DNA of 35,629 nt. Source: Alphaproteobacteria bacterium (GTDB lineage: Bacteria > Pseudomonadota > Alphaproteobacteria > UBA9219). The number at the start of each line of letters is the position of its first letter. Within the stretch, counting starts at the first letter, position 1. The notes under the pieces were generated by a model, which had not been told where the DNA came from, did not search any database, and saw nothing but the letters and a program-made list of their open reading frames with translations. Location of the stretch: assembly GCA_028708035.1 (NCBI GenBank), contig JAQVZU010000010.1, positions 1-35,629 on the forward strand, in the 5' to 3' direction. Made by a program: the position numbers and the translations under genes. This document shows positions 23,085 through 35,230 of this stretch, piece after piece.

Positions 23085-23109
23085 TTCCTCATTGAAGAGC
23101 CACTTTAAG

Positions 23110-23139
23110 TGGGCCCCTGTGCAGGGGCCCATTTTTGTT
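23110..23139 (+). terminator. Strong intrinsic terminator of dapA
   Basis: TGGGCCCCTG (23110-23119) pairs with CAGGGGCCCA (23122-23131), followed by TTTTTGTTT. It begins 25 nt beyond the dapA stop. The IS630 fragment begins about 30 nt further on. Confidence 0.9.
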
Positions 23140-23171
23140 TCAGGCGCAGAACACTCCGGAAACCTGATCCT

Positions 23172-23495
23172 CCGGCCCTCAGCAAACATGTGCAACAGGA
23201 CGCACATGCGGTCGTCCTTATCGATGGTGCAGGCTGGCACAAAGAGGACAATATGCTACGCGTACCAGAAAACATTACTTTGGTTCGATTCCCTCCCTAT
23301 TCTCCTGAGCTCAATGCTCAGAAGAATATCTGGGAATATCTCAGGCCAAACTTCCCCGCAGCAAAAGTCTGCGATACCTGTAATGACATCGTCGACGCCT
23401 GTTGCATCGCATGGAACGAACTTTTGGCCATCCTGGGCAAAACCAAATCCATCGCCTTGCCATCTTGGCTCCAGATCGAACAGATCATTACTTAG
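23172..23495 (+). pseudogene. IS630-family transposase, C-terminal fragment
   Basis: Only the C-terminal part of the transposase remains: HAVVLIDGAGWH (with the second catalytic Asp), then ITLVRFPPYSPELN and the family tail SIALPSW, ending at TAG 23495. The N-terminal half and first Asp are missing. The position of the third catalytic residue reads NAQKNIW where the family has NPxENIW or NPIEKVW, so the Glu appears to be Lys. The copy is truncated and probably catalytically dead. The region directly abuts the dapA terminator. Confidence 0.85.
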
Positions 23496-31878: not shown

Positions 31879-33212
31879 ACAAACTCTCACAAAAAATGCC
31901 TGACTCTTCGCAAACGATTATCGAGCGCTTTCGCACGTCTTACGGCAAGGATATCGACTTGTCGCTCCGCCCCGCCTACCACGATTTGCTGGAGAAGCTC
32001 GGCAATCCCCAAAATCGCCTGCCCCCCGTTTTCCACGTCGCAGGAACCAACGGCAAAGGCTCCACCTGCGCTTTCATGAGGGCGATGTTCGAAGCCGCGG
32101 GCTATAAAGTCCACGTCTATACTTCGCCCCATCTTGTAAACTTTCATGAACGCATTCGCATTGCGGGACGCCTCATTTCCGAGGAAGAACTCGCAGCGCT
32201 ACTTGCGAAGGCTGAACGACTCGCAATTCCTCACGGGGTCAGCTACTTCGAAGCTTCCACCGCTGTGGCGCTCGACGCGTTCGCGCAGCACCCCGCCGAT
32301 TTTACGATCCTCGAAACGGGACTCGGCGGACGCCTCGATGCGACGAATGTCGTTCCGAAGCCTCTCGCGACCATTATCACGCGCCTGTCTTATGACCACC
32401 GCGAATATTTGGGAGACACCCTTTCCGACATCGCGCGCGAAAAAGCGGGCATCATGCGCGCCGAAACGCCGTGCTATGTTGCGCGCCAGCCGGAACCCGA
32501 AGCCATTCAAAGCCTGCGCCAAGCCGCCGCCGACATTCATGCTCCGTTGTTTGTCGAAGGCAAAGACTGGACAATCGACAAACATCCCGACGGGGCATTC
32601 CGCTTTGCCGATGCGACGCGAACGCTCGATCTTCCGCCACCGGGATTGATCGGCATTCACCAGTACCAAAACGCAAGCCTCGCCATCGCGGCGCTTTCGG
32701 TCTTGCGCAAGCCGTTGCCCATCGACTGCTTTGCGAAAGGCCTGCGCAACGTCGAATGGCCCGCGCGCCTCGAGCGCCTGAAAGGAGGACGCCTTGATGC
32801 GATGCTGCCCGAAGGAGCCGAACTCTGGCTTGACGGAGGCCACAACGACTCTGCGGGCGAAGTCCTTGCCGCGCAGATCGCGCGTTGGCGGACCGAAGAC
32901 GGTCCGAGCCCCAAACCTCTTTATATCGTCCTCGGAATGCTCACAACAAAGCGGCCTGCCGAATTTCTCGGTCCGTTTGCGAAAGAGATCGCGCTTCTAC
33001 GCACCGTTCCCGTTCCCCACGAACCCCTGAGCTTCACAAACGAAATTCTCGCCGGAGAAGCTTGCGCTTTGGGCATCTCCGCAGCCCCGTCGAAAAACGC
33101 GGCGGAGGCATTGCGCGACTTGGCCAGCCATCCTTTGCGCCTCCCGCCGCGCGTCCTGATCTGCGGCTCGCTTTATTTGGCGGGAGATGTTCTGGCTGAA
33201 CAAACGTTATAG
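31875..33212 (+). CDS. folC: Bifunctional folylpolyglutamate/dihydrofolate synthase
   Basis: Mur-ligase-family ATPase that adds glutamate to dihydropteroate and to folates. From ATG 31875 the product is 445 residues. The P-loop GTNGKGST lies near 58-65, followed by YTSPHLVNFHERIRIAG, ETGLGGRLDATN and SYDHREYLGDTLSDIAREKAGI; the C-terminal ligase domain contains WLDGGHND. All key elements are intact. In many alphaproteobacteria folC follows accD; here it ends the pepA-holC unit. It overlaps the convergent unknown gene by 6 nt. Confidence 0.95.
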   Translation: MNKLSQKMPDSSQTIIERFRTSYGKDIDLSLRPAYHDLLEKLGNPQNRLPPVFHVAGTNGKGSTCAFMRAMFEAAGYKVHVYTSPHLVNFHERIRIAGRLISEEELAALLAKAERLAIPHGVSYFEASTAVALDAFAQHPADFTILETGLGGRLDATNVVPKPLATIITRLSYDHREYLGDTLSDIAREKAGIMRAETPCYVARQPEPEAIQSLRQAAADIHAPLFVEGKDWTIDKHPDGAFRFADATRTLDLPPPGLIGIHQYQNASLAIAALSVLRKPLPIDCFAKGLRNVEWPARLERLKGGRLDAMLPEGAELWLDGGHNDSAGEVLAAQIARWRTEDGPSPKPLYIVLGMLTTKRPAEFLGPFAKEIALLRTVPVPHEPLSFTNEILAGEACALGISAAPSKNAAEALRDLASHPLRLPPRVLICGSLYLAGDVLAEQTL

Positions 33213-34067
33213 CATAATCGGAAAATGATAGATCGGCGTCTTGAGCCGAAGCTGGCGATTGGGCACGCCAGGAATGGTTAATTTTCTACACCCGTTTTTA
33301 AACCAAGCTCCGCCCTTCCCAATATCCTCTAGTTCCAAAGCCTTGCTGCCCACCATAACGTAAATCTTTTTTTCCGTATCGCCCGGTTTCTGATCGTGAC
33401 GAAAACTAATGTGCTGCTTGTTTTTCCCAACCTGCATATACACGGGATCATCGATATAACCGGACGAGCCATATATATTATACTTGGAAATGTCTATAAG
33501 GGACACTTCCTCGCCTCGATGATCATGCGGCACAAAAAAACCACGAAGACATTCCTTGCGTCCTGCATTGATATACGCAGGCGTCGTTACAACAAGGATA
33601 CCCTTCCGATCAAGCCTCCCAAGGCTGTATTGCTCCGGAAGATCGATCGCAAAAACGATCTTGCGTTCGTTGGGCAAACCAAACACTTCAATCTCATTGT
33701 TTCTTATCCTGCTCTGTACGTTATCGGCAGCTTCCAAAGAGAAGCTTTCAGCTTTGCCGCGATATTGGACGCTCGCGAAGTTGCCGAAAGATGTAATGTG
33801 GAAAAGCCTGTCATAGTCGTTACCGGTTGCAACTTGATAATGAGCGATGCCGGATTCGCGTTCGACCAATTCCGCCGCGAGTTGATAAAACTTATTAGGG
33901 GACTTAGCATCCGAGTAAAAAATGGTCTCATTAAAGAAAGCTAGCTTTCCCCAACCTTCTTTAGAATAAACCTCCTCAACCACGACATTGTTGGGAGAAC
34001 TGCGAATTCCATCATACAGCGGGCAGAAATAAGCGGGAAATCCTGTTTGCTTTTTTTTCCTGACCAT
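33207..34067 (-). CDS. Hypothetical protein, 286 residues
   Basis: I do not recognise this protein. It has a basic start (MVRKKKQTGFPAYFCPLYDG), no signal peptide or membrane segment, and many alternating hydrophobic-polar stretches suggesting a beta-rich fold. Recurrent Gly/Tyr/Asn motifs occur (SKYNIYGSSGYIDDPVYMQVGKNKQ). The start has a strong GGAGG ribosome-binding site. The gene looks more AT-rich than pepA-folC, which hints at transfer. It ends inside the folC stop region (6-nt convergent overlap) and is divergent from the riboswitch-controlled gene, with 113 bp between them. Confidence 0.6.
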   Translation of the reverse strand: MVRKKKQTGFPAYFCPLYDGIRSSPNNVVVEEVYSKEGWGKLAFFNETIFYSDAKSPNKFYQLAAELVERESGIAHYQVATGNDYDRLFHITSFGNFASVQYRGKAESFSLEAADNVQSRIRNNEIEVFGLPNERKIVFAIDLPEQYSLGRLDRKGILVVTTPAYINAGRKECLRGFFVPHDHRGEEVSLIDISKYNIYGSSGYIDDPVYMQVGKNKQHISFRHDQKPGDTEKKIYVMVGSKALELEDIGKGGAWFKNGCRKLTIPGVPNRQLRLKTPIYHFPIML

Positions 34068-34148: not shown

Positions 34149-34177
34149 GTGACAATTATTTCTGTTTCTGCTTAATT
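34149..34177 (+). promoter_or_regulatory. Candidate promoter of the TPP riboswitch transcript
   Basis: GTGACA (34149-34154), a 17-nt spacer and TTAATT (34172-34177) place the transcription start near 34184, at the 5' edge of the riboswitch. This agreement supports the call. Confidence 0.5.
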
Positions 34178-34180
34178 ATT

Positions 34181-34252
34181 CCAAACCGGGGTGCCCGAAG
34201 GGGCTGAGATCATACCCGTAGAACCTGATCTGGATCATGCCAGCGAAGGGAG
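34181..34252 (+). promoter_or_regulatory. TPP riboswitch (THI element)
   Basis: The conserved aptamer core is complete: GGGGTGCCC, then GGGGCTGAGATCATACCC (pyrimidine-sensing arm with CTGAGA), GAACCTGATCTGGATCATGCC (diphosphate-sensing arm) and CAGCGAAGGGAG. These bind thiamine diphosphate. The ribosome-binding site AAGGGAG (34246-34252) is itself the conserved 3' strand, and the ATG follows 6 nt later. Control is therefore most simply at translation: ligand binding would hide the site. No terminator hairpin lies between aptamer and start. The downstream gene is not a known thiamine gene. Confidence 0.93.
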
Positions 34253-34258
34253 TTAACC

Positions 34259-35230
34259 ATGAGCATTCTTGCGCCCGCGCGCGGCGATCCGCACGCATTG
34301 ATGGCGTCTTTTCCGCGAAGTTTGTTCGAGGCTCCGTACATGGCGGGCCGAAAAATCACCGCTGGGTTTTCCTACCTTCAACGCATCGGAAAGTCCGGCG
34401 CTTACGATGTATGGTTTCCCGAAGACTTCAAAGCCGAAATTCGGCTGCTTGAAGAAGCAGGCATCCCCCTCGGCCCCGAACGCTTCGGCGCGGAATGGGC
34501 CGCCGTCCGCCAGTTTGAGCTTCTGCATGAGGCGGGCAACTATAAGATTTACGATCTTAAAGCTGAAACGCTTCTGCGGTCTTTTCGAGACCTGACGCGA
34601 AGCATGCGCGCGGGGGGCTACCGCATAACCGTCGCGACACTGGGCCGCTATGAAGATGAGAGTCCGAGAGACGAGCTTGAAATTCTGGACCGCCGCTTGC
34701 AAGAGGGCATCGCCCAGATGATCCATATGTTGTACCTTGAGGAATCAAGCGAGCAAGCGAACGCCGAAAGCGATGAGCGCCTGGAATCCGGCCAATGGGA
34801 TTACCGCCAGGATCTGCCCCATATCGGGATAGCCCTTGGCTCGCGAGACCTTTTCAGGCGTCCTCCGAAAGATGGCTCGATACCGCCCTCCATGCGCAAA
34901 AACAGGCTTGCGAAGCAATTTTTTGAAATCATTAACAAGCTTCCGCAAACCCACATCGTGCACGATACAGCCGTAGGCCTTCAGCTTCCCGAACTGATTG
35001 GAGAGAACCATTGGATATATCTGCCAGATTCGGATGAAACTTTTAGCTCCTTCAACCGCCTTCTCACGAACCTGTTCGAAAAATTCGACAACATATCCCT
35101 GTCGCGCCTGCATGGACGCGAAGATGCGCACGACGAAATAAAAGCCGCGTCCCTGCATCTGCGAGGCTACGGCGACCGGCTGAACGAGAGCAACCGATTC
35201 TATCGTTCCGCTTCTCTGGCGTTAAACTAG
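34259..35230 (+). CDS. Unknown 323-residue protein under TPP riboswitch control
   Basis: I do not recognise a family. The product is soluble, with no signal peptide or membrane segment, and is rich in charged helices. Notable stretches are YMAGRKITAGFSYLQRIGKSGAYDVWFPEDFKAEIRLLEE, an Arg/Glu-rich middle (about 130-190), QTHIVHDTAVGLQLPELIGENHWIYLPDSDETF, and a C-terminal LLTNLFEKFDNISLSRLHGR. It is not ThiC, ThiE, ThiD, a tenA-type salvage enzyme or a transporter. The start is fixed by the riboswitch ribosome-binding site 6 nt upstream. It is monocistronic as far as visible, with 110 bp to the next start. A link to thiamine metabolism or a TPP enzyme is inferred only from the riboswitch. Confidence 0.8.
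   Translation: MSILAPARGDPHALMASFPRSLFEAPYMAGRKITAGFSYLQRIGKSGAYDVWFPEDFKAEIRLLEEAGIPLGPERFGAEWAAVRQFELLHEAGNYKIYDLKAETLLRSFRDLTRSMRAGGYRITVATLGRYEDESPRDELEILDRRLQEGIAQMIHMLYLEESSEQANAESDERLESGQWDYRQDLPHIGIALGSRDLFRRPPKDGSIPPSMRKNRLAKQFFEIINKLPQTHIVHDTAVGLQLPELIGENHWIYLPDSDETFSSFNRLLTNLFEKFDNISLSRLHGREDAHDEIKAASLHLRGYGDRLNESNRFYRSASLALN

Follow-up and report, generated by a model that had tools for sequence, protein, structure and literature searches.

Genes under the control of TPP riboswitches usually serve thiamine synthesis or uptake. One described type buries the ribosome-binding site (RBS) in the conserved aptamer, so that the ligand attenuates translation directly (Barrick and Breaker, 2007; PMC2258182). 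Among uptake genes, a TPP riboswitch on thiT controls thiamine uptake (PMC8862789), and in Candida a TPP riboswitch is found on a thiamin transporter (PMC5997356). Herein, we analysed a stretch of alphaproteobacterial DNA of 35,629 nucleotides (the window), in which a TPP riboswitch stands directly before a gene that belongs to none of the known thiamine families and is here called Q. Three features make up the locus:

34177–34268, forward strand: TPP riboswitch aptamer (RF00059; cmscan, 70.5 bits, E 4.1e-12)
34247–34252, forward strand: ribosome-binding site AGGGAG, read from the sequence, within the conserved 3' strand of the aptamer
34259–35230, forward strand: gene Q, a soluble protein of 323 aa from an undescribed, lineage-restricted family, supported by its open reading frame (ORF), homologues and codon-position pattern

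When the whole window was scanned against Rfam, the TPP riboswitch was the single match; it covers the RF00059 model at full length (positions 1–105), scores 70.5 vs a gathering score of 54.3 bits, and the model end runs into the first codons of Q. The aptamer carries the motifs CUGAGA, ACCC, GAACCUGAU and GCGAAGGGAG, and the sequence around it reads ...CCAAACCGGGGTGCCCGAAGGGGCTGAGATCATACCCGTAGAACCTGATCTGGATCATGCCAGCGAAGGGAGTTAACCATG. AGGGAG is followed after 6 nt by the ATG at 34259, a layout in which the RBS lies within the aptamer and the start codon comes right after, as direct attenuation of translation demands. The original prediction, made from the sequence, had proposed a THI element with all core motifs before a 323-residue protein and an RBS in the aptamer 3' strand, 6 nt from the ATG; its suggested check against the Rfam TPP covariance model gave this strong match above the gathering score, and both proposals hold, the start coordinate given at the time (34149) lying 28 nt upstream of the aptamer. 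A whole-genome search found no second TPP riboswitch in the genome to which the window belongs. Upstream of the riboswitch, a divergent ORF of 286 aa (33207–34067, reverse strand) has no Pfam match and is not kept beside Q in relatives. Elsewhere in the window, a short ORF (23109–23495, forward strand) resembles, by eye, a fragment of an IS630-type transposase (VVLIDGAGWHKE...FPPYSPELNA).

The core of the Q aptamer, GGGGUGCCC...ACCC...CUGGAU.AUGCCAGCG.AGG, may resemble the E. coli thiM-type TPP aptamer, a likeness that serves as a lead only; thiM, unlike the Q aptamer, has a separate expression platform. The closer parallel is the type of Barrick and Breaker (2007; PMC2258182): the Q aptamer belongs to the same RNA family, has no separate expression platform, and supplies the RBS from its purine-rich conserved 3' end, with the start codon a few nucleotides on. 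The two differ in the target, as Q is not a known thiamine gene and is the only TPP target found in its genome. As with thiT and the Candida gene, the proposed role of Q would place vitamin acquisition under a TPP riboswitch, but those targets are membrane transporters, whereas Q is a soluble protein without a known family.

When TPP is abundant, the aptamer would fold, the AGGGAG in its 3' strand would be hidden, and Q would be turned off; when TPP is scarce, Q would be translated and, in the cytosol, would help to obtain or manage TPP for cells that lack the known pathway. We infer this OFF logic from the layout and from known TPP riboswitches. For the RNA without ligand, the minimum-energy fold is a different structure, from which the aptamer is absent; it neither proves nor excludes switching, which rests on precedent.

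The ORF at 34259–35230 is taken to be a real gene because homologues of similar length exist and because divergence follows codon position. Within the genus, differences amount to about 0.23–0.34 at first, 0.17–0.25 at second and 0.44–0.61 at third positions, a pattern that indicates purifying selection on the Q protein. No significant match to Q was found in Pfam (best E 0.14), NCBIfam, PHROGs or PADLOC, and the Pfam, PHROG and PDB negatives are to be read against the content of those libraries. A few single homologues gave weak Pfam scores that were mutually inconsistent (best E 0.002). Q contains no membrane-spanning or signal-peptide-like hydrophobic segment, and the top 19-residue hydropathy among 23 Q homologues is 1.15, short of what a membrane segment of a thiamine transporter should reach. 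These results agree with the original description of Q as a soluble 323-residue protein outside the thiamine families. Invariant columns of the family include R31, W80, R84, R122, D138, D144, W180, G240 and P244, and the conserved arginines fall on predicted strands. Of two structure models for the family (pLDDT 69.9 and 79.5), the better AlphaFold model is that of a compact homologue (pLDDT 79.5, pTM 0.73), with five main strands and several helices; among the compact homologues, one at locus L063 has 260 aa. The structure search that had been recommended with the original prediction yielded no fold match: Foldseek returned nothing below E 0.1 in the PDB or in BFVD (viral). In addition, neither its fold nor any residue pattern connects Q with kinases or with TPP-binding proteins. 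In two homologues (L056:1504-2826 and L057:5672-6922), the site of a short loop in other members is taken up by an insertion of several tens of residues.

Several identities were considered for Q and rejected. A divergent version of a known thi enzyme (ThiC, ThiE, ThiL, TPK or another) found no family or profile match, and the hhalign probability against an E. coli ThiL profile was only 0.3%. One PDB chain of FolD matched over 55 residues at E 5e-4, which was read as chance because the match is short and isolated, with no other FolD chain up to E 1 and no Foldseek match.

The family is confined to a narrow lineage. Families f1, to which the window belongs, and f3 are part of one alphaproteobacterial order; 26 of their 28 genomes have homologues, at 26–60% identity, and thus 26 of the 33 genomes compared across that order, most or all of which are MAGs. 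Q was not found in the five genomes of the sister family f2 from the same order, nor in 381 other Alphaproteobacteria, a class-wide draw of 385 genomes having matched only four f1/f3 members. Furthermore, a pattern search across about 85,000 species genomes returned 16 Q loci, all from uncultured MAGs labelled as Alphaproteobacteria, Rhodospirillales, Rhodospirillaceae or uncultured proteobacterium, and no credible relatives were found in viral contigs, phage records or plasmids. The genomes G004 (98% complete, with DXS) and G012 (63%) have neither Q nor the riboswitch.

Within this lineage, the pairing of riboswitch and gene is conserved. In 23 genomes, comprising 22 of f1 and one of f3 (G025), the TPP aptamer runs right up to the start of Q, and so the linkage of homologues to THI elements, the test on which the original prediction had been staked, was observed. 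The riboswitch scan of the f1 genomes G000–G018 gave 17 TPP matches, all of which lie directly before Q, as does the single match in f3. The related loci score above the RF00059 gathering score in 18 of 19 scanned, and the remaining one (L051 in G013) falls just under it at 53.2. AGGGAG or close variants are followed within about 4–9 nt by ATG or TTG at the homologous loci. In the alignment of 23 aptamers, CUGAGA, ACCC and neighbouring core columns are invariant or nearly so, the P3-side stems vary, and compensatory double changes, one or more per pair, are seen in 7 of 17 predicted stem pairs. Compared pairwise, the aptamers are on average 72% identical, vs 41% for the 90 nt upstream, the latter figure standing without a measured chance level. 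The genes flanking Q differ in most genomes, with recX nearby in three loci, and TPP sensing on Q itself is most likely what selection preserves, since the aptamer and Q are kept while flanks and neighbours change.

Copies of Q without the riboswitch also exist. Diverged homologues in the f3 genomes G029 and G031 are riboswitch-free with their upstream DNA visible, while in G027 a contig end cuts the 5' end of Q. G016 carries a second copy (L055:7111-8151, contig C43) from whose upstream region the TPP riboswitch is absent, and this paralogue has apparently escaped TPP control. As for operon partners, downstream genes on the same strand vary between loci (PEPCK, an M23 peptidase and others) and therefore offer no guilt by association. 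The most frequent neighbour is a cytidine/dCMP-deaminase-like gene, seen in six loci of four genera, which may be there by chance or through a functional link to Q:

L048:5363-5884, L049:11722-12270, L056:3530-4096, L060:6595-7221, L063:1858-2412 and L073:837-1346, strand opposite to Q: deaminase-like gene near Q

Thiamine metabolism in the Q-bearing families was searched in the f1 and f3 genomes other than G019–G023. In this set, ThiC and TPK_catalytic had no match, and nothing scored above the cut-off for ThiE/TenI or ThiL. Sub-threshold ThiL scores in five f1 genomes came from HypE where typed, beside hypD where checked, and other weak ThiL scores lay in frames of about 740 aa that were read as PurL. 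The five Q-bearing genomes with hypE (L239, L240, L241, L242 and L243), in which hypD adjoins in three of three checked, carry genes implying hydrogenase maturation. DXS, a TPP enzyme, was matched by the E. coli query in every genome searched, at full length or nearly so in most. G002, a near-complete f1 genome covered almost whole from ten contigs, was also searched by tblastn with E. coli proteins: DXS, IspA, RibD and RibE were found, and ThiB, P, C, D, E, F, G, L, M and K gave no match. Relatives yielded no PnuC/PnuT-family transporter and no ThiB homologue (the latter in a search without a positive control); these negatives cover PnuC/PnuT and ThiB, other transporter families being possible. 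As judged from gene content, Q-bearing bacteria use TPP without recognisable TPP synthesis or thiamine phosphorylation; because DXS is present and thi genes were not found, TPP import or unknown proteins would be required. Family f2, which lacks Q, has ThiC, ThiE and ThiL above cut-off, and among the genomes searched Q and the thiamine pathway genes are complementary within the order, although as few as one or two evolutionary events may lie behind this distribution.

Taken with the predicted derepression under TPP scarcity, the absence of the known pathway argues for a role in TPP supply, and Q probably serves TPP acquisition or homeostasis and is made when TPP is scarce. What it would do biochemically is much less certain. 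To read Q as a non-orthologous TPP-forming kinase or as a salvage enzyme is a guess to which we give low weight. Similarly, it seems unlikely that Q is a new enzyme that turns imported thiamine or thiamine phosphate into TPP and replaces TPK and ThiL family-wide, its predicted fold having no counterpart in the PDB. The same gene absences can be read otherwise, with Q as a soluble partner of an importer of TPP or thiamine that has escaped recognition, whether as cytosolic adaptor, chaperone or trap, in cells that live on imported TPP. Direct TPP uptake is the simplest lifestyle where TPK and ThiL are not found, Q has no membrane segment, and thiamine auxotrophs carry their riboswitches mostly on uptake genes; against such a partner, no transporter gene recurs beside Q, and PnuC/PnuT and ThiB, the latter searched without a positive control, are unmatched in relatives, which leaves this reading doubtful. 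It also appears improbable that Q lies outside TPP supply and acts in regulation or stress, with TPP as a proxy signal for the state of nutrients or host. Such a protein would fit the lack of an enzyme-like family or fold match, the conserved strand arginines, which could bind nucleic acid or phosphates alike, and the existence of copies without the riboswitch, but riboswitch-controlled genes nearly always belong to the metabolism of their own ligand, and within the order the presence of Q tracks the absence of the thiamine pathway.

By far the least probable account is chance capture, in which an unrelated gene came to stand behind an old leader of thiC or of a transporter, with no selected role for that leader. 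The original prediction had named a captured thiC leader as its alternative. In its favour, TPP elements occur on thiC in the sister family, and no further thi target is present in the genome of the window. However, the aptamer core is kept in 23 genomes despite strongly diverged neutral sites while the flanks are not, the stems have changed in a compensatory manner, and the short spacing to the start codon is kept across Q loci. The thiC riboswitches of f2, from the same order, and of f6 belong to the same RNA family as the Q aptamer but differ from it in stem sequence, and the distance from their aptamer end to the likely ThiC start codon ranges from some tens of nucleotides to about 140 nt, as against about 4–9 nt from AGGGAG to the start codon of Q; the leader of the sister thiC is of another subtype and has the longer spacer. 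Capture of a thiC leader is disfavoured, as the pairing is old and maintained, as the sister thiC riboswitch is built differently, and as thiC was not found in the Q-bearing families. The Q aptamer may instead have originated from a lost transporter or salvage gene, or by horizontal transfer.

Altogether, the preferred reading of Q as a gene for TPP acquisition or homeostasis retains the original idea that a riboswitch-controlled orphan points to a missing step in cofactor supply, as an inference rather than a demonstration. The conserved and exclusive pairing of the riboswitch with Q, in genomes without the pathway genes tested, is a pointer to a new step in vitamin B1 acquisition or homeostasis. 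It provides one concrete candidate for how these bacteria, which evidently use the cofactor, may obtain or activate it.
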